From Polaribacter glomeratus (GTDB lineage Bacteria; Bacteroidota; Bacteroidia; Flavobacteriales; Flavobacteriaceae), in NCBI RefSeq assembly GCF_002954665.1, contig NZ_MSCM01000002.1, forward strand, positions 1,026,767 through 1,090,766: 64,000 nt of DNA, in the 5' to 3' direction. Made by a program: the position numbers and the translations under genes. Below the pieces are notes generated by a model. That model saw only the letters and a program-made list of their open reading frames with translations. It did no database searches and was not told the origin of the DNA. This document shows, one piece after another, positions 1,324-11,118 of the stretch (the first letter of the stretch is position 1; every line of letters starts with the position of its first letter).

Positions 1324-1640
1324 CTAAGCCGAGTTTCTACTCGCATTAATATTACCAAATAAAGAACGCATCACCATTTTTTCATAAACCTCAATTTCTG
1401 CCGTATTTCCTTCCGTTTTTTGAAGTTCTTGAATTCTCTTTAACGCAAATTGTTGTATCGTTAATAAAGGTAAAACAATGTTTTCTCTAATTGCTATCGA
1501 TGCTTTTCCTACCGGATGATTTTCCATCAATTCTGTATGACCCGCCAGTTTTAATAACAAACGTTTTGTAGTTAGGTATTCTTCATGAATTAAATTCCAA
1601 AATTCACCATAAACAGGGTCGTCTGCCATATAAGCCGTTG
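1324..1640 (-). pseudogene. Detached 3'-end copy of ppc (last ~104 codons)
   Basis: The frame encodes 104 residues (TAYMADDPVYGEFW to NINASRNSA) identical to the C-terminus of the complete phosphoenolpyruvate carboxylase at 5985-8564. No proper start exists: an in-frame TAG lies just upstream of a TTG at 1644, and the PEPC catalytic domains are absent. It cannot be a working enzyme. The nucleotide match to 5988-6300 is about 98%. Every difference I found is a synonymous third-position change, plus TAG versus TAA at the stop. This is best read as the displaced gene end left when a segment inserted at the 3' end of ppc. Confidence 0.9.
1327..1639. repeat. Direct repeat, left copy (ppc 3' end)
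   Basis: This 313-bp segment recurs at 5988-6300 in the same orientation at an offset of 4661 bp. The central ~205 bp are identical and the few mismatches cluster near the two ends. It bounds the inferred ppc island on the left. Confidence 0.92.
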
Positions 1641-1728: not shown

Positions 1729-1962
1729 ATGGGAAGACAAAGTATTTCGTTCACTCAACCAAATGATGAATGGCTAAAAAATCAAGTTGATAAAAAAGAG
1801 TATTCTACTAAAAGTGAACTTGTAAACGATTTAATTAGACAAGCAAGAAAACAACAAAGACAAATTGACTGGATTAGTGCTAAATTGGAGAAAGCTGAAA
1901 ATAGCGGATTTACGAATTTGAGTAAAGAACAAATATTAGCGGAATCAAAGTCGTTGATTTAA
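1729..1962 (+). CDS. ParD-like type II antitoxin
   Basis: A 77-residue protein beginning MGRQSISFTQPNDEWL. The N-terminal ~50 residues look like a ribbon-helix-helix DNA-binding domain (ISFTQPNDEWLKNQV, then TKSELVNDLIRQARK). The charged C-terminal tail would wrap the toxin, as in the ParD/CopG group. The stop overlaps the toxin start by one base (TAATG), so the two are translationally coupled. A palindrome just upstream is the likely operator. The family predicts a labile antitoxin that neutralises the downstream ParE-like protein. The pair sits inside the ppc island, consistent with a role in keeping the island. Confidence 0.85.
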   Translation: MGRQSISFTQPNDEWLKNQVDKKEYSTKSELVNDLIRQARKQQRQIDWISAKLEKAENSGFTNLSKEQILAESKSLI

Positions 1963-2249
1963 TGCCTAATTATAAAATAAGTAATTTAGCGAAAGAAGAC
2001 TTAATAAGAATGCATAAATACGGAGTTGAAAAATTCGGAATGATTCAAGCTGATAAATATTTCGATTCTTTCTTTGAAAACTTTGACATTATAGCGGAAA
2101 ATCCATTTTATTTTGAAGCCGTCGACTATATAAAAATAGGATATCGACGTTGTGTTTCTGGTTCAGATAGTATTTATTACAAAGTAAATAATAATATTCT
2201 AGAAATTATGGCAATAATTGGAAGACAAGATTTAAAAAATATTCTCTGA
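1962..2249 (+). CDS. ParE/RelE-superfamily toxin
   Basis: A 95-residue protein beginning MPNYKISNLAKEDL. The opening resembles the ParE family pattern of an early beta strand followed by a helix with A.EDL. The later stretch YRRCVSGSDSIYYKV matches the conserved GyRrf..g.y.iyY strand region, and the end IMAIIGRQDL matches the usual v..IlhgrqD. ParE toxins poison DNA gyrase, while RelE relatives cleave mRNA; sequence alone does not settle the target, but the antitoxin type favours ParE. It is coupled to the antitoxin by a 1-bp overlap. Confidence 0.87.
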   Translation: MPNYKISNLAKEDLIRMHKYGVEKFGMIQADKYFDSFFENFDIIAENPFYFEAVDYIKIGYRRCVSGSDSIYYKVNNNILEIMAIIGRQDLKNIL

Positions 2250-2481: not shown

Positions 2482-4053
2482 CTATTTATTATATATTTCA
2501 TCAATAATTTTTTCAAAAATGACTTCATCAGAAGGAGAAGGAGCTTTATTTAAGATGATTTTATTTTCTTTATTAAAAATAACATATTGTGGTATTTCAT
2601 TCACTTTAAAAAAACTAGCCAAAGAAGATTTGCGCCCTTTTAACAGAAAAAAAGAGTTGTTAAAATTTAATACATTTTCAAATTTTTTATTAGCTACTAA
2701 CCATTTTTTGTAATCTTTTTCAGGCGAAATATATATCCACTCAACATTATTTTCAACCAAAAGTCTATCTTTAAAAGGTTTGCCTTCTTTAATTTGTTCT
2801 ATACAAGGTGGGCACCAACTTGCCCAAAAATCAACAACTTTTATTCTTTCTTTAGATCGCGCAAAAATTTTTCGTAAAGTTAAAGTGTCTCCTATATTGT
2901 TAATAAATTTAGAGTCTAAAGCGGATTCTGATAATTTAAAATCATACGATTCTAAATCTGCTTTTATACCATTCATAAATTCAATATAAGATGGTTTTGT
3001 AAATTGTTCTTGGTACTCATCAATAGTACTTTTTAAGAGTTCAATACTATTTATACTATTTCCAAACCCTTTTAAATGATAATCTCTTATCATTCTTGCA
3101 ATGGCATAATTTTCTATTTCACCATCAAAGTTTTTTTGAATAAATTCTTTTTCTGCTAAGAACTTTTCTTTTGAATAGGGTAAATATTTTGAGTCGAGAA
3201 AATAATATCTTATGTATGGATTAATATTATTTTTAAAGTACGTACTATTATTAAGGGCAATTACATCTTTGAATTCTTCAATTGATATTTTTCCAAAATA
3301 ATTAGACAAATCAAAAATAACTTCTGAATTTTTAATCGTTTCTTTTTGAATTATTGGCATTAATCCATCAAATTCATTAAAGTAATAGCCATCTCTACTT
3401 GATTTAACATTTACAGGATTGATAAGAGAATATAAATATTCATGCTTTAGATTACTTTTTATAGTATTAATAAAATATTTAGATTGAATGTTATTCTTTT
3501 TAACATATTGATTTAAAAAAGCAATTCTTTTATTGTAAATAGACTTTATACTTTCTTTGTACAAATTTAGATTACCTGTATAAGGGTTTTTTTGATATTC
3601 AGGCGTTTGACGATTCATTTCTGAATAATAATTATTTTGTATCGCATTTTTACCAAAAAACAATACTTTTCCATCTTTTATTTTGATGCTAATTGTGTCT
3701 CCTGGAATCAGAAAAATAAAACCACGATAAAATGCTTTACCACCTCCTAGAACAACTTCTGAAAACAATGGTTTATCTATTGAATTCAAAACCATATGTA
3801 ATGAATCAGCAAAAATTTCTTTTGTAGCATCTAAATGTGGTCTTCCAAATAGATAAGTACTATTCATAATGCTAAGGTATTCAAATGCAATAATATCATC
3901 AGTAGTTCCAGTAATTACAACTTTATTTAATTTAGAATCTCTATTTTCAATAAAACTGTTTGATTTTAAAGCCTCTTTTTTTGGCAACGTATTTTTCTTA
4001 CAATGAAGTAATAATGAAAAAACTATTACACAAATAATATATCTAAATTTCAT
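2482..4053 (-). CDS. TlpA-like thioredoxin-fold lipoprotein (island copy 1)
   Basis: 523 residues. The N-terminus is a lipoprotein signal (MKFRYIICVIVFSLLLHC), so the protein is anchored on the envelope side. The first ~390 residues are a helical region I do not recognise. The C-terminal ~130 form a TlpA/AhpC-type thioredoxin domain with redox motif WCPPC at about 413-417 and a cis-proline loop, EIPQYV, near 489. Such proteins reduce or isomerise disulfides outside the cytoplasm. The gene lies 73 bp downstream of the cysteine-rich peptide gene and is co-oriented with it and the second TlpA gene, which suggests the peptide as a substrate (inference). Confidence 0.85.
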   Translation of the reverse strand: MKFRYIICVIVFSLLLHCKKNTLPKKEALKSNSFIENRDSKLNKVVITGTTDDIIAFEYLSIMNSTYLFGRPHLDATKEIFADSLHMVLNSIDKPLFSEVVLGGGKAFYRGFIFLIPGDTISIKIKDGKVLFFGKNAIQNNYYSEMNRQTPEYQKNPYTGNLNLYKESIKSIYNKRIAFLNQYVKKNNIQSKYFINTIKSNLKHEYLYSLINPVNVKSSRDGYYFNEFDGLMPIIQKETIKNSEVIFDLSNYFGKISIEEFKDVIALNNSTYFKNNINPYIRYYFLDSKYLPYSKEKFLAEKEFIQKNFDGEIENYAIARMIRDYHLKGFGNSINSIELLKSTIDEYQEQFTKPSYIEFMNGIKADLESYDFKLSESALDSKFINNIGDTLTLRKIFARSKERIKVVDFWASWCPPCIEQIKEGKPFKDRLLVENNVEWIYISPEKDYKKWLVANKKFENVLNFNNSFFLLKGRKSSLASFFKVNEIPQYVIFNKENKIILNKAPSPSDEVIFEKIIDEIYNK

Positions 4054-4126
4054 GTTAGAGCTTTAAAATTAAGTTAATTATATAATGGAAACTGGGATTT
4101 TTTAACCCCTGTTATTTTATAGATTA

Positions 4127-4324
4127 CTACCAACATGAACACGATGAAAATCCATCAAATGGCTGACACACACCAACGGCCCAGCCGTCACAATCTAAAG
4201 CTTCGTAAGTTCCACCGCCTTTGCATGATACCCAACACTTTCCTAAAAGAACCAAACCTCCCAAAACCACTTTCTGTTCAACTCTATTAAGAGCCTTACC
4301 AATGTTTAAAATTTGTTTTTTCAT
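4127..4324 (-). CDS. Cysteine-rich double-glycine-leader peptide (bacteriocin/RiPP-like)
   Basis: A 65-residue peptide. Residues 1-23 (MKKQILNIGKALNRVEQK, then VVLGG) look like the double-glycine leader found on Bacteroidota bacteriocin-like precursors. Cleavage after GG would release a 42-residue core with six cysteines and several glycines and aromatics, ending SSCSCW. Six cysteines could form three disulfides, which fits the two flanking thioredoxin-fold lipoproteins. No lanthipeptide synthetase, radical SAM enzyme or peptidase-containing ABC transporter is nearby, so export would need genes elsewhere. Antimicrobial or signalling function is not shown. The upstream region is A/T-rich with no clear -7 box. 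Confidence 0.75.
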   Translation of the reverse strand: MKKQILNIGKALNRVEQKVVLGGLVLLGKCWVSCKGGGTYEALDCDGWAVGVCQPFDGFSSCSCW

Positions 4325-4450
4325 AATTTAAAATTTAAAGATATTAAAATAACTTAAGCTTTTAATATCCATTGAGTAAGTTAGACAATCGTTGCAACAA
4401 TATTTTTTGTTTAATCAATAAAAAAAGTATTGCCTATAAATACTTAAATT

Positions 4451-5794
4451 TTATTTTTTTAAATTTATAATACGTTTCAACTCCTTAAAATTACTTGTGC
4501 CACTTTCTTTATAAAGTATATTCATTTCATTGTCAACTAATAGTAAAGTAGGGTAATATGTAATTCGAAGATCTTTAATGATACCTTTTCCATTACTTCT
4601 ATTATAGAAATACTGCGGCCAATCCATTTCGTTTTTGGTTGTATATTGAATTACATCATTCAAATTTTTATCGTAAGCAATACTTATTAAATTAATTTGG
4701 CCTTTATTTTTATTAAAAAATTCTTTTAAAGTTGGTATTTGTTCTCTGCAAGGTTTGCACCATGTTCCCCAAAAATCTATTAGTGTGTATTTTTTCTTCT
4801 TTAAAATATCTGCTAATTTTTCTTTTTTTAAAGTTAAATTTTTTAATTTCTGACCAATCTTATTCCCGTAAATAAACTTTTTACCTTTAATTTCTTTAAT
4901 TTTTAGATTATTTAAATCGTTAGAAATATCTTCTAAAACAAAAACTTTATTTCCAAGTTTTATGGAATCTTTTATTTCGTATTTAAAATTTTGATTTATT
5001 ATTGGATTTTTATCATCAAAATTTTGTGTTGATGGTTTTATGTAAAGCGAAAAATTACCTCTGGAAGTACCTTGAACAATAAAAACATATTCGAGCTCAT
5101 CTAAAACAACATTTCCTTCCCAATAATCTTTGAACTTTAGTAACAGCCTAGATTTTTTTGAAATTTCATCATTCGTTTCAGAAAATCTGTAATCATTTAA
5201 AGAGGGATAAATAATTGCTTTTCGTTTAAAACGAGTAATAACACCTTCCTCTTCGGCCCAATAACTATAGTCTATTTTAGGAATATTTTTCAAATCTACA
5301 CTGTCAGAATCATGATTTCTGAAATCTGATTTAAAAATAATAGGTTTTTCGTCTTTAAAATTTCCGTTTTTATTTTGATCTACATATAAAATTTGGCGAT
5401 CTTTTTTAAATTGAATACCAACCAAAAGTTTATTGTCTTTGGGAGTGTTTTGATATTTAAGAGAATCAATACCTATTCGCATGAATTCTTCTTTACTTAA
5501 ATAATCCTTTTTAAATAATTCAAAAATATATGAAAAATAATTTGTTTTTAAAGTAGAAATAATGAGAGAGTCTTTTAAATCAAAATGAGAATTACTCATT
5601 AAATCTTGATAATATTTTGGATATTTTTCATATTGAGATGAGAATTGTATTGTATTTTCAATAGGTTCAAAAAAAGAATAATTACCTTCTTTTAGTTCTA
5701 ATGTTATAATAGTTTGCCCTTTTTGAGTTTCATTATTTTTACCATTACATGACAGTAAAATAAAAAATAGTAAAACTAGATTAATTGTTTTCAT
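4451..5794 (-). CDS. TlpA-like thioredoxin-fold lipoprotein (island copy 2)
   Basis: 447 residues from ATG 5794; the frame also extends to a TTG at 5818, but the ATG sits right before a good lipoprotein signal (MKTINLVLLFFILLSC). An N-terminal ~310-residue region has no family I recognise. The C-terminal thioredoxin domain carries WCKPC at about 345-349 and a cis-proline segment, ITYYPTLLLVD. It resembles the envelope TlpA/ResA reductases. It is the first gene of the minus-strand trio in the island, 126 bp upstream of the cysteine-rich peptide. The two TlpA genes are clearly different proteins outside the redox domain, so they are not a recent duplicate. Confidence 0.83.
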   Translation of the reverse strand: MKTINLVLLFFILLSCNGKNNETQKGQTIITLELKEGNYSFFEPIENTIQFSSQYEKYPKYYQDLMSNSHFDLKDSLIISTLKTNYFSYIFELFKKDYLSKEEFMRIGIDSLKYQNTPKDNKLLVGIQFKKDRQILYVDQNKNGNFKDEKPIIFKSDFRNHDSDSVDLKNIPKIDYSYWAEEEGVITRFKRKAIIYPSLNDYRFSETNDEISKKSRLLLKFKDYWEGNVVLDELEYVFIVQGTSRGNFSLYIKPSTQNFDDKNPIINQNFKYEIKDSIKLGNKVFVLEDISNDLNNLKIKEIKGKKFIYGNKIGQKLKNLTLKKEKLADILKKKKYTLIDFWGTWCKPCREQIPTLKEFFNKNKGQINLISIAYDKNLNDVIQYTTKNEMDWPQYFYNRSNGKGIIKDLRITYYPTLLLVDNEMNILYKESGTSNFKELKRIINLKK

Positions 5795-5984: not shown

Positions 5985-8564
5985 TTATGCCGAGTTTCTA
6001 CTCGCATTTATGTTCCCAAATAAAGAACGCATCACCATTTTTTCATAAACCTCAATTTCTGCCGTATTTCCTTCCGTTTTTTGAAGTTCTTGAATTCTCT
6101 TTAACGCAAATTGTTGTATCGTTAATAAAGGTAAAACAATGTTTTCTCTAATTGCTATCGATGCTTTTCCTACCGGATGATTTTCCATCAATTCTGTATG
6201 ACCCGCCAGTTTTAATAACAAACGTTTTGTGGTTAGGTATTCTTCATGAATTAAATTCCAAAATTCACCATAAACAGGGTCGTCTGCCATGTAAGCTGTT
6301 AAACCAAAAAACGACTTTGTTAAACTCATCATACTGTTTTCTAGCAAGGTTTTAAAGAAATCGGATGCATTGTAAAATTCTACAATTTCATCAAATCTAC
6401 CAGCTTCTTCGTATTTTTTTAAGGCAGCTCCTACACCATAAAAACCAGGTACATTTTGTTTTAATTGACTCCAGCTGCCAACAAAAGGGATTGCTCTTAA
6501 AGAAGCAAAATCTAAAGTATCAGAAGTTGAGCGTTTACTTGGTCTGCTACCAATATTGGTTTTAGCATAATATTTTAACGTACTCATTTTTTCTAAATAC
6601 GGTAAAAACTGCGGATGATTTTTAAAATCTACGTATGTTTTATAACTTGTAACTGCCAAATCTTCAATAATAGTTCTGTTTTTATCGTTTATTTGATCCT
6701 TGTTAAACATTTCGTTTTTAATACCAGAACTTATTAATTGTTCTAAGTTGTATTGCGATGAGTTTAAAGTTCCAAAATTAGAGCTAATTGTTTGTCCTTG
6801 TATGGTTAACTGTATTTCTTTATCTTCAATTGTTGGTCCTAAAGAAGCATAAAATTTATGTGTTTTTCCGCCTCCTCTTGCAGGTGGTCCACCACGTCCG
6901 TCAAAGAAAATTACATCAATATCAAACTCTCTAGAAATTTTTGTTAAAGCTTCTTTCGCTTTAAAAATACCCCAGTTTGCCATTAAATAACCACCATCTT
7001 TTGTTCCATCAGAAAAACCTAACATAATTGTTTGCTTGTTTTTTCTTTTTGATAAATGATATCTGTACGTGTTATTTGTATATAATGTGCGCATTACATC
7101 GCTTGCATTTTCTAAATCATCTACCGTTTCAAAAAGCGGAATTACATCAACCGGTAATTCGTTTTCAAAGCCGCATAAATTTAGCATTGCAAAAGTTTGC
7201 ATTACGTTTAGTGCACTTTGGTTATTACTGATGATATATCTGTTTGCACCACGTTCGCCATTTCTTTGTTGAATTGTTTTTAAAGCATAAATAGATTCAA
7301 TTGTTTTTACAGACATTTCATCAGACAAAATTAAAGGGTCTATCGTTCCTTTTACCAACGATAAAATATCTATTTGTTCATCGGCTGATAAATGATGATA
7401 ATTTTTAGGGAATGTAGTGTCGCCAGTTTCAATTAAGTCTGTTACAATTTGCGTAAACGCATCGTGATGCACTCTGCTATCTTGCCTAATATCTAACGTT
7501 GCAAAATGAAAACCAAAAATTCTAACTTTGTTAATAAAGTCATTTAATTCTTCTACAAACAAAGATTGATGCTTGTTCACTACAATTTCTCTGGCAGCAT
7601 ACAATTCTTCTAAAAGTATTTTCTGAGAAAAATTAACTTTTGCATAACTTCTTACAACGTGTTTGTACAAACGCTTCTCTAATCCTGCTAAAATTTCTTG
7701 AACACCATCAAACGTAAAACGTCTTTTTAAACGTCTAACATCTCTGTAATAATTTCTTAAAATTGATTGACGCAATCTTTCGGCAACATCTAAGGTAATT
7801 TGTGTAGTTACAAAAGGATTACCGTCTCTATCGCCTCCTGGCCAAAAACCAAGATCTATAATTTCGTTTTGCATTGGGCCGCCGTCATAAACGTGCTGCT
7901 GAATATAGTTGTATATTTTACTAACAGAATGATAAAATACATTTTCTAAATACCAAATTAAACTTACCGCTTCATCAAAAGGAGTAGGTTTAGATTTTTT
8001 GTAAAAAGGAGTTTTTCCTAATTGTGCTAAAAGATTTTTGATAAGTAGCAAATCATCATTTTGAATCGCTGTATCTAAATCTGTAATGATTCCTAAAACA
8101 GAACCAGGATAAAACTGAGTAGGATGTGCCGTTAAAACAACACGTACTTTAAAGTCTTCTAGATGTTTTTTTAAATCTTCTTTTTTGCCACTTAAAAGCG
8201 CAGTTTCTTCAGAGTTTCTAAGTGTACCCAAACCATCCATGTTATTTACCGTAGGAAAAGCGGCGTCTTCAACAGCATCAAACAAAACTACCTGACGTTC
8301 TATATATTGAATAAATTGAAAGAGTAAATCTTTTTTACCTTTTTCTGTAGGATTTTCTAAGTATTTATTAAAAAATTTTTCTACAATTTCTGTTGGATTT
8401 AATCCTTGTTGAAAACCATTTTCGCAAATTTTATGAAAAAGAGGTAGTAAAACACCTGTATTATTTATGGTGTCGAAAGGAAGTGTAATAAAAATACTGT
8501 TGTAAATTTGATATTTAGACAGCACATTATCGTTAAATCTTGTAATTTTTGGTAAATCAGACAT
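5985..8564 (-). CDS. ppc: Phosphoenolpyruvate carboxylase
   Basis: 859 residues, near the usual 850-900. It adds bicarbonate to phosphoenolpyruvate to make oxaloacetate, an anaplerotic step in the cytoplasm. The N-terminal catalytic motif VLTAHPTQ puts the essential His at about 147. The glycine- and arginine-rich loop FDGRGGPPARGGG and the motif GFSDGTKDGG are present, and the C-terminus ends in the typical RNSA. The last 104 codons are duplicated at 1324-1640. The coding frame is intact across the junction at about 6300, so the hybrid gene should be functional. Confidence 0.97.
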   Translation of the reverse strand: MSDLPKITRFNDNVLSKYQIYNSIFITLPFDTINNTGVLLPLFHKICENGFQQGLNPTEIVEKFFNKYLENPTEKGKKDLLFQFIQYIERQVVLFDAVEDAAFPTVNNMDGLGTLRNSEETALLSGKKEDLKKHLEDFKVRVVLTAHPTQFYPGSVLGIITDLDTAIQNDDLLLIKNLLAQLGKTPFYKKSKPTPFDEAVSLIWYLENVFYHSVSKIYNYIQQHVYDGGPMQNEIIDLGFWPGGDRDGNPFVTTQITLDVAERLRQSILRNYYRDVRRLKRRFTFDGVQEILAGLEKRLYKHVVRSYAKVNFSQKILLEELYAAREIVVNKHQSLFVEELNDFINKVRIFGFHFATLDIRQDSRVHHDAFTQIVTDLIETGDTTFPKNYHHLSADEQIDILSLVKGTIDPLILSDEMSVKTIESIYALKTIQQRNGERGANRYIISNNQSALNVMQTFAMLNLCGFENELPVDVIPLFETVDDLENASDVMRTLYTNNTYRYHLSKRKNKQTIMLGFSDGTKDGGYLMANWGIFKAKEALTKISREFDIDVIFFDGRGGPPARGGGKTHKFYASLGPTIEDKEIQLTIQGQTISSNFGTLNSSQYNLEQLISSGIKNEMFNKDQINDKNRTIIEDLAVTSYKTYVDFKNHPQFLPYLEKMSTLKYYAKTNIGSRPSKRSTSDTLDFASLRAIPFVGSWSQLKQNVPGFYGVGAALKKYEEAGRFDEIVEFYNASDFFKTLLENSMMSLTKSFFGLTAYMADDPVYGEFWNLIHEEYLTTKRLLLKLAGHTELMENHPVGKASIAIRENIVLPLLTIQQFALKRIQELQKTEGNTAEIEVYEKMVMRSLFGNINASRNSA
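5988..6300. repeat. Direct repeat, right copy (ppc 3' end)
   Basis: The partner of 1327-1639, inside the intact ppc gene. It marks the right border of the inferred island. Confidence 0.92.
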
Positions 8565-9150: not shown

Positions 9151-11118
9151 CTATTTTTTATTAAAATTTTGCAAACCTTCTTGTAACCAATTATAATACG
9201 TGTCTCTATCTGTGTATTGTTGCGCAGAATTTAAAACCTCTAAATCTGCACTTAACAAAACATAAAAGGGTTGTGATGCGTTTTTGAAGTTGATCACTTG
9301 AAAAGTAGACCATTTATCGCCTACAGTTTCTATCTTTTTAACCTTTCCGTTTTTCTTTAAAAAATCGAATTGTTGGTCTTTTGGCAACTCTTTTTCATTA
9401 TCATCAACATACAAAGAAATCAAAATATAATCTTCTTTTAACGTTTGATAAATGTCTGGTTCACTCCAAACATTTTCTTCCATTTTTCTGCAATTAACGC
9501 AAGCCCAACCCGTAAAGTCTAATAAAATTGGTTTGTTGGTTTCCTTTGCAGCAGCAAGGCCTTCTTCAAAATCGTCATAACAATTTAAACCTAAAGGGCA
9601 ATCTGTTTCTTGCTCATAAATGCTGTAAAATTGTGGAGGTGGAAAACCGCTTAACAAACTTAAATTCCAAGTAGGATTTTTCATAACTCCTGGAGAAATA
9701 TAAATGATAAATGAGATAATTAAAACTCCGAATGAGATTCTTGAAAACGATAATTTCTTGATAGGAGAATCATGCGGAAATTTAATTTTCGCAAAGATAT
9801 ACAAGGCCAATCCTATGAAAATAATAATCCAAATTCCGATAAAAACTTCACGTTTTAGAATGTCCCAATGTGCCACTAAATCTGCATTTGATAAGAATTT
9901 AAACGCCAATGCCAATTCTAAAAACCCTAAAATAACTTTAGTTGTGTTTAACCATCCGCCAGATTTTGGTAAAGAATTTAACCAACTAGGAAACAGTGCA
10001 AACAATGCAAAAGGAAGCGCTAAAGCTAATCCAAAACCAGTCATTCCTGCGGTTAATTGTATTGCGCCACCATCCGAAGATAAAGAACCTGCTAACAAAG
10101 AACCCAAAATTGGTCCTGTGCAAGAAAATGAAACGATTGCCAAGGTTAAAGCCATAAAAAAGATGCCAACAAGGCCGCCAACCGAAGAAGCAGAATCCAT
10201 TTTATTTCCCCAAGAACTTGGTAATGTTATTTCGTAAAATCCGAAGAATGAGAATGCAAAAAATACCAAAACCACAAAAAAGAAGATGTTTAACCAAACA
10301 TTTGTAGAGATTGTGTTTAAAATTTCAGGGTCTAAATTGTCTAAAAAGTGAAACGGAAGACTTAATAAGATATAGATAAGCACAATAAAAAATCCATATA
10401 AAATGGCATTGAAAACGCCTTTCTTTTTGTTTTCTGATTGTTTTGTGAAAAATGAAACCGTTAACGGAATCATAGGAAATACACAAGGTGTTAATAAAGC
10501 CAGCAATCCGCCAACAAAACCAAGTAAAAATATGCTAAATAAGCCATTTGAAGTATCAGTATTTGTGTCTGTAGAATTCTTTAAAAGTGAAGTGTTTTTT
10601 AAATCTAATTGTAATTTTTTGGTTAGATTTTGACTTTTTTCATCAATTGAAATCGCTTCATTTATAGTATTTCCGGCCAGGGAAATCGTAAAGTTTTCAT
10701 CAATATTTATACAAGCAGTTTCGCAAACTTGCCCAAAAAAGTTAAGTTTAATTTGGGTAATTTCTTTGTTCGTTAATTGTATTCTTTGGGTAATAATTGC
10801 TTTGTCTTTAAAAACAATTTCTTCTTTTTCCCAAACATCAGAATATTTAGCAAAAGTGTCTTTTTCGGTTGCCTTGCCAACCAATTTATAACCAGTTTCG
10901 TTGGCTTGCATTGTTATTTCTAAAGGCAACGAAGCTTCATCTGGGTTGTATTGCGAGTACAAATACCAGCCTTTATACAATTTTGCACTAAAAACAACAT
11001 CATATTCAGTTTCTGATATTTTTTGAACAGAAGTTTCTAATTTTATAGGTTCATCTGCAGTTTGTGCCTGAGAAATTATTGCTGATAAAAGGATGAAAAA
11101 TGTGATGAATTTCTTCAT
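9151..11118 (-). CDS. dsbD: Thiol:disulfide interchange protein DsbD
   Basis: 655 residues with the three-part DsbD layout. There is a signal peptide and an N-terminal periplasmic domain (DsbC/DsbD-like, with the cysteine pair in QVCETACINID). A central membrane domain of about eight helices carries conserved cysteines in LLTPCVFPMIP and SFSCTGPILG. A C-terminal thioredoxin domain has WACVNC. The family passes electrons from cytoplasmic thioredoxin to envelope oxidoreductases. The start overlaps the tilS stop by one base (TAATG), so the two are coupled. It is a plausible electron source for the TlpA-like proteins at 2.5-5.8 kb (inference). Confidence 0.95.
   Translation of the reverse strand: MKKFITFFILLSAIISQAQTADEPIKLETSVQKISETEYDVVFSAKLYKGWYLYSQYNPDEASLPLEITMQANETGYKLVGKATEKDTFAKYSDVWEKEEIVFKDKAIITQRIQLTNKEITQIKLNFFGQVCETACINIDENFTISLAGNTINEAISIDEKSQNLTKKLQLDLKNTSLLKNSTDTNTDTSNGLFSIFLLGFVGGLLALLTPCVFPMIPLTVSFFTKQSENKKKGVFNAILYGFFIVLIYILLSLPFHFLDNLDPEILNTISTNVWLNIFFFVVLVFFAFSFFGFYEITLPSSWGNKMDSASSVGGLVGIFFMALTLAIVSFSCTGPILGSLLAGSLSSDGGAIQLTAGMTGFGLALALPFALFALFPSWLNSLPKSGGWLNTTKVILGFLELALAFKFLSNADLVAHWDILKREVFIGIWIIIFIGLALYIFAKIKFPHDSPIKKLSFSRISFGVLIISFIIYISPGVMKNPTWNLSLLSGFPPPQFYSIYEQETDCPLGLNCYDDFEEGLAAAKETNKPILLDFTGWACVNCRKMEENVWSEPDIYQTLKEDYILISLYVDDNEKELPKDQQFDFLKKNGKVKKIETVGDKWSTFQVINFKNASQPFYVLLSADLEVLNSAQQYTDRDTYYNWLQEGLQNFNKK

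Follow-up and report, generated by a model that had tools for sequence, protein, structure and literature searches.

A cysteine-rich double-glycine peptide and two TlpA-type lipoproteins in Polaribacter glomeratus: a probable orphaned remnant of a secreted peptide system

In a stretch of 64,000 nucleotides from Polaribacter glomeratus (contig NZ_MSCM01000002.1, positions 1,026,767 to 1,090,766; hereafter the window), a gene for a small cysteine-rich peptide with a double-glycine leader lies between the genes of two TlpA-type lipoproteins, which are referred to here as TlpA-A and TlpA-B. A preliminary description had proposed a peptide with a six-cysteine core between two such lipoproteins, and all three genes have indeed been found, on the minus strand and with thioredoxin domains according to Pfam. 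The order in the direction of transcription is TlpA-B, peptide and TlpA-A, with 74 nucleotides between the latter two, and no peptide was recognised upstream of TlpA-B in the window, where it is thus an orphan (Table 1).

Table 1. Features of the peptide locus, the surrounding island and its neighbourhood, in window positions
Feature	Position	Strand	Description
TlpA-A	2482..4053	-	523 aa; lipobox-like LLHC; variable N-domain at about residues 1-375; TlpA-type thioredoxin domain at the C-terminus, with WCPPC (Cys codons 2803-2814); pairs with the peptide
Double-glycine peptide	4127..4324	-	65 aa; based on open reading frame and relatives
Peptide leader	4256-4324	-	MKKQILNIGKALNRVEQKVVLGG
Peptide core and stop	4127-4255	-	all six Cys within the core
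TlpA-B	4451..5794	-	447 aa (start codon ATG at 5794); lipobox-like LLSC; N-domain of its own; WCKPC (Cys codons 4748-4759)
Possible eroded leader-RNA remnant	4325..4407	-	model R1, 15.4 bits, E 0.32; abuts the peptide ATG
ParD-like antitoxin	1729..1962	+	NCBIfam TIGR02606, 9.3e-8, under its cut-off
ParE toxin	1962..2249	+	Pfam PF05016, 1.1e-9
Second copy of ppc 3' end	1328..1639		left island border; open reading frame fragment matches PEPcase
ppc 3' end	5989..6300		right island border; within intact ppc (5985-8564, minus)
DsbD-type thiol:disulfide interchange protein	9151..11118	-	Pfam DsbD_TM, 3.2e-23; outside the island

The window precursor combines a double-glycine leader with a short core, and the leader is common to the peptides of Polaribacter sp. 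IC073, which are encoded beside a C39 exporter gene. It is not a chance open reading frame (ORF), because in other genomes the gene just ahead of the orthologue of this TlpA encodes a relative with four or six of its cysteines. The thioredoxin-type domain occupies the C-terminus of both lipoproteins (Pfam Thioredoxin_8, 1.2e-8 and 5.3e-18), which pass the cut-offs of both Thioredoxin_8 and AhpC-TSA and possess the CxxC motif; all listed NCBIfam scores for the curated TlpA, ResA, DsbE and StoA equivalogs or subfamilies are far under cut-off. Neither the N-terminal parts of the two lipoproteins nor the peptide match any Pfam or NCBIfam family. A search of PDB sequences returned matches to TlpA-A in the thioredoxin domain only and none to the peptide, a tblastn search of plasmids with the peptide and the TlpA-A N-domain gave no match, and viral contigs encoded no TlpA-A relative. 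The AlphaFold2 models had a mean predicted local distance difference test score of 51.5 for TlpA-A (three rows) and 31.2 for TlpA-B alone, too low for a fold search. Precursors of the radical S-adenosylmethionine class of ribosomally synthesised and post-translationally modified peptides (TIGR04149) were considered and rejected, as the window peptide gave no match and the best of 10 peptides scored 19.7 bits against a cut-off of 25.

Fuller versions of the locus occur in other Flavobacteriaceae, where the peptide and TlpA-A share an operon with a C39-like/VKOR/DsbA fusion, further peptide-TlpA cassettes, a C39 ATP-binding cassette (ABC) exporter and an HlyD protein. The best relative is Polaribacter sp. 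IC073 (locus L031/L056, genome G104; L and G numbers denote loci and genomes throughout), in which a fusion of 522 amino acids with C39-like, VKOR and DsbA-like (Thioredoxin_4) domains is followed by peptide 1, TlpA 1, peptide 2, the TlpA-A orthologue, peptide 3, TlpA 3, C39/ABC and HlyD. The TlpA-A orthologue is 74% identical to the window protein at the amino acid level in this locus and 73% in L057. The C39 peptidase and ABC exporter gene of IC073 is split into two ORFs, so this strain may no longer export. In locus L057 (G047) the VKOR fusion is only distantly related, the exporter occupies a single open frame, and HlyD and a peptide followed by the TlpA-A orthologue are also present. L107 (G458) unites in one operon homologues of both TlpA-A and TlpA-B, each preceded by a peptide of its own, and VKOR, C39 ABC and HlyD genes, all frames being open. 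L057 and L107 are fuller loci with open frames, and L056 has the same gene set but a split exporter. A TlpA-B homologue in G123 is 81% identical and orphaned. The expectation that the three genes recur elsewhere with conserved cysteines was borne out for the pair of peptide and TlpA-A; the exact trio did not appear in the TlpA-A and TlpA-B searches. Separately, peptide arrays were observed at L072:1592-14986, L077:3861-14544, L085:7062-15376 and L088:4112-12209, in which 20-31 differing cysteine-rich double-glycine peptides accompany one C39 ABC/HlyD/VKOR set and no TlpA was found.

The window genome lacks this machinery. The preliminary description had seen no transporter near the peptide, and the statement extends to the whole genome, which has no Peptidase_C39 match (0/1) and no close ABC exporter, the best match being only 33% identical. 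The VKOR fusion is likewise without a match (0/1), and the same query matches 44 of the 146 genomes of the genus. Among the 42 genus genomes with a peptide match, the window genome is the sole one without a C39 match, and a VKOR match is lacking in it and in two others, one of which is an incomplete genome. Family-wide it is not alone, since G214 (L111) has an intact peptide ahead of a TlpA-A homologue and no C39 match. With neither fusion nor C39 protein in the genome, the trio therefore appears as an orphaned cassette. TlpA-A itself is patchily distributed, being found in 9/146 genus genomes (E 0.001) and 22/397 family genomes (E 1e-30), with the window genome counted in both.

Peptides and TlpA proteins are paired in a non-random manner. 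In 20 intact pairs, chosen by hand given that the automatic pairing table missed or mis-called some (e.g. the third L056 pair, L101 and L108), the TlpA gene lies directly downstream of the peptide gene; L075_0 was left out, its peptide being disrupted. Across these pairs the similarity of the cores tracks that of the TlpA N-domains (Mantel rank r 0.43; p 0.0005, which is the minimum attainable with 1999 permutations), and the similarity of the leaders does so to a much smaller extent (r 0.13, p 0.07). Furthermore, the window, IC073 and G047 peptides have a common core framework. The window and G047 cores retain all six cysteines in the arrangement CWV[ST]C ... CDG, a cysteine after seven residues ... 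CSCW, despite unrelated leaders, and this leader swap is better evidence of pairing than the correlation. A second peptide class, ending in CC..C, is represented by 8 cases in the loci examined, of which 7 are directly followed by a TlpA gene, one of them (L107) by virtue of a hand-corrected start. The broader proposition that every cysteine-rich peptide of this leader type has a TlpA was rejected, as the large arrays are mostly without one.

In addition, the TlpA genes are kept where the rest of the system is lost. The peptide directly upstream of 32 TlpA-A-family genes is intact in 8 cases (the window, L056, L057, one of two in L094, L097, L098, L107 and L111), disrupted in 5 (L060, L100, L101, L102 and L103) and not recognised in 19, one of which (in L094) has an ambiguous leader-like ORF upstream. 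Upstream ORFs were listed for all locus genes of the 32, and some of these were also inspected in three-frame translation; the set includes L112, L113, L114 and L116, taken in via a match in the thioredoxin domain from genomes that a TlpA-A search had hit, and leaves out the 27% homologues in L062 and L063. Outside the TlpA-A family, three of the four peptides in L071 (G053) are disrupted, two by in-frame stops and one by a lost start, and all four TlpA genes are open; similarly, the first peptide of L075 is frameshifted in its leader and its TlpA is open. Oxidase or exporter genes are fragmentary or frameshifted in L060, L097, L098, L100, L101 and L106, where the TlpA-A-family genes remain open. 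Loci L098-L101, which are 88-93% identical in nucleotides over the TlpA gene and short flanks, represent differing stages of loss, and L099 retains essentially TlpA alone. The ratio of nonsynonymous to synonymous substitution rates is 0.175-0.336 in 12 TlpA pairs, orphans included, and about 0.2 for TlpA-A. One search covered 28 genomes that carry relatives of TlpA-A or TlpA-B, and 14 of them had no C39 match. TlpA genes even form arrays of five (L064:5839-13929) and four (L067:4997-10153) in which no peptide or exporter was found; an S41 peptidase gene lies inside the former. The C..C motif is retained in 30/32 TlpA-A-family genes. Being one-to-one with the peptide, matched to its core and kept without peptide or machinery, the TlpA genes therefore behave like immunity genes.

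These findings suggest, with a probability of roughly 0.6, that the trio has been left over, orphaned, from a system of secreted disulfide-rich peptides and that the TlpA proteins are cognate immunity lipoproteins, which probably act by reducing disulfides. The peptides are most likely secreted, disulfide-stabilised and bacteriocin-like. In the fuller systems, the membrane-bound C39-like/VKOR/DsbA fusion very likely forms their disulfides, a function suggested by its domain families, and the C39 ABC exporter with its HlyD adaptor would cleave the leader and export the peptide. The envelope TlpA would most likely confer immunity to a presumably toxic peptide, its variable N-domain recognising its own peptide and its CxxC thioredoxin domain probably inactivating the peptide by disulfide reduction, as the retention of C..C in nearly all members suggests; electrons could be fed to it by a DsbD-type protein such as that at 9151-11118. 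The window peptide is probably not secreted, because neither exporter nor oxidase was found in the genome, and TlpA-A and TlpA-B may remain as protection from neighbours that still make such peptides. Of the preliminary description, the link between a disulfide-type double-glycine peptide and envelope TlpA proteins stands, and the suggestion that TlpA-A and TlpA-B form or check its disulfides is not supported.

Several observations weigh against this explanation. The correlation between cores and TlpA proteins partly reflects co-inheritance, a CC..C-class peptide in L127 has no adjacent TlpA, and a C39 match exists somewhere in the other 14 of the 28 genomes. The large arrays consist mostly of peptides without a TlpA, so that TlpA is not a general immunity factor and the makers of such peptides would be protected by something else, if at all. 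L105:8391-9818 and L115:8600-10075 encode TlpA-A N-domain homologues without a thioredoxin domain or any Pfam match, which suggests that the N-domain can be kept alone and that binding may suffice in some cases. Many homologues were found via TlpA, with genes picked as open frames, which biases the sample toward intact TlpA genes; in L058 it is a TlpA, of another type, that is broken. A pure immunity remnant would have no need of an intact peptide such as that of the window. Finally, in the bacteroidetocins, the closest characterised system, the thiol oxidoreductase encoded next to the peptide was required for activity and conferred no protection (PMC6671954).

The last point favours the main rival of immunity, over which immunity is preferred by what we infer from sequence: the TlpA proteins might be dedicated maturation factors that isomerise or proof-read the disulfides of their own peptide during export, close to what the preliminary description had in mind. 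A redox domain beside a cysteine-rich peptide in the same orientation, and one TlpA per paired peptide with matching between core and TlpA, would be expected of such factors as well. The fuller loci, however, already own a separate VKOR/DsbA-type protein suited to the task, and the TlpA genes are kept under purifying selection where peptide, oxidase or exporter is dead or missing, whereas a maturase without substrate should decay; immunity fits this better, and maturation is accordingly rated as unlikely. Still less probable is a role of the peptide in signalling, or as some other secreted product without toxicity, with TlpA as its receptor, carrier or quencher. One locus can hold a large and variable array of peptides (up to 31), and orphan TlpA proteins could listen to neighbours, but no regulator was noted beside the pairs (no systematic search was made), a redox domain has no obvious receptor role, and weapon and immunity pairs typically show what is seen here, the peptide being lost repeatedly and TlpA retained. 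Bacteroidota commonly encode TlpA-type lipoproteins, and no peptide or exporter was found close to the distant homologues (27%) in G024, G060 and G108, as would be the case for ordinary envelope thiol reductases that adjoin peptide genes by chance; the patchy distribution of TlpA-A in genus and family, the non-random pairing and the 7/8 CC..C-class peptides directly followed by TlpA make such a coincidence highly improbable.

The peptide genes are further characterised by a candidate leader RNA, a conserved element of about 85 nucleotides that extends up to the ATG of many of them and consists of a hairpin and a second hairpin whose loop pairs downstream to form a pseudoknot. With 31 seeds, 0/500 shuffles reached any of five measures, a contest that related sequences can win by themselves, and the covariation score was 0.294 versus at most 0.139 for slid structures. 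The seeds were picked by a regular expression in which helix P2 and the downstream pseudoknot strand were partly fixed, and the conservation of both is thus partly by construction. The pseudoknot pairing was not included in model R1; in 59 distinct model matches, one of which (L132:14562) is also a seed, the pseudoknot helix is 96% paired, with changes on both sides in all six pairs. The element is taken to belong to the peptide mRNA because its G-U pairs lie on the sense strand, and the antisense would have A-C mismatches. Among 144 matches, seeds included, a double-glycine ORF follows at once in 129 by a script rule and in 2 more by eye, the VKOR fusion follows in 2, and the other 11 include disrupted peptides. 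All scans together gave 233 matches, seeds included and some loci entered twice, with examples at L056:6052-6138, L056:7574-7660, L056:9563-9649 and L057:8282-8368, and the loci concerned are named Polaribacter, Tenacibaculum, Kordia and Roseivirga. No Rfam 15 family reaches its cut-off in six loci scanned, a weak rimP match (31.7 bits, cut-off 47) overlapping an element copy on the other strand in L107. As far as these comparisons go, the covarying pseudoknot leader RNA is new.

The window has no element match at E 0.05, and nor do the L094, L108 and L111 peptides. The best of 26 weak R1 matches in the first 12 kb of the window lies immediately upstream of the peptide and is perhaps a remnant of the leader RNA. 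Copies of the element were also seen just past a TlpA gene at L109:10886-10972 and L100:10967-11049, with a short ORF behind the former and no intact peptide recognised behind the latter; they are perhaps relics of a lost next cassette.

The trio is situated in what had been described as a mobile-looking island with a toxin-antitoxin pair, and both descriptions are well founded. The island comprises 4.3 kb of low GC content (25.4% vs 30.3% for the window) and is flanked on either side by a copy of the ppc 3' end, the two being about 312 nucleotides long with 6 mismatches, as counted by eye in the alignment; GC content is as low in 5 of 239 overlapping 4.3-kb windows, those covering the island included. 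ParE was confirmed by Pfam, and the antitoxin is ParD-like. A TlpA-B homologue in G034 (L065) likewise adjoins ppc, and with these two cases only, the site next to ppc may be a repeated landing site. The DsbD-type protein beyond the island could supply periplasmic TlpA reductases with electrons, a connection that we infer.

The system is likely to be a new variant of double-glycine peptide system in which TlpA lipoproteins serve as immunity proteins. The literature searched, which does not cover most papers in subscription journals, contained nothing about this operon or about TlpA as a bacteriocin immunity factor, and passages of PMC7440613 do not mention TlpA. More tentatively, and with somewhat less than even odds, the TlpA lipoproteins could form a new class of bacteriocin immunity proteins that reduce peptides picked out by the N-domain, orphan TlpA arrays being a disulfide-cutting defence that would explain part of the TlpA lipoproteins of Bacteroidota. 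If true, this would account for a group of TlpA lipoproteins that had lacked an explanation, add redox inactivation to the mechanisms of immunity and point to a large and diverse repertoire of disulfide-rich peptides among marine Flavobacteriaceae. The leader RNA would offer a second handle, as anything sensed by it should tell when the peptides are produced.

Several known systems resemble this one in part. Gram-negative class II microcins (e.g. microcin V) have a double-glycine leader, a C39 ABC exporter, HlyD, disulfides and an immunity gene adjoining the toxin gene. The systems described here share the leader type, C39 ABC, HlyD and disulfides, and have a candidate immunity gene next to the peptide gene; co-encoded C39 ABC and HlyD, which define double-glycine class II bacteriocins and microcins, were not found with the window peptide, whose genome has no C39 match, and are present in L057, L107 and, with a split ORF, L056. 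To our knowledge, microcin immunity proteins are small and are not thioredoxins, whereas the candidate here is a lipoprotein of about 360-550 amino acids with a TlpA domain. The TlpA/ResA/DsbE oxidoreductases, including DUF4369-TlpA lipoproteins, are similar in their C-terminal thioredoxin fold with CxxC, their lipoprotein nature and their N-terminal extension; unlike them, TlpA-A and TlpA-B have N-domains that match no known family and are genetically paired with a peptide. Orphan immunity genes are also part of the acquired interbacterial defence of Bacteroidales, which is directed against type VI secretion system effectors. Like the TlpA genes, these immunity-like genes are kept without the weapon, in arrays too (cf. 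PMC10470768), but they answer secretion system effectors, while TlpA lipoproteins are involved here. The bacteroidetocins, class IIa-like double-glycine peptides of Bacteroidetes, come as one peptide, one protein with five transmembrane segments and one oxidoreductase, both accessory genes being needed for activity and neither protective (PMC6671954). That gene set, with its C39 ABC, was not encountered, as the window genome has no C39 protein and its relatives have a VKOR fusion and TlpA proteins. Both kinds of system encode a small cysteine-bearing double-glycine peptide, a C39 ABC exporter and a thiol oxidoreductase together in Bacteroidetes; what sets the present one apart from the bacteroidetocins is the VKOR/DsbA fusion and one large TlpA lipoprotein per paired peptide, a lipoprotein that is also kept alone.

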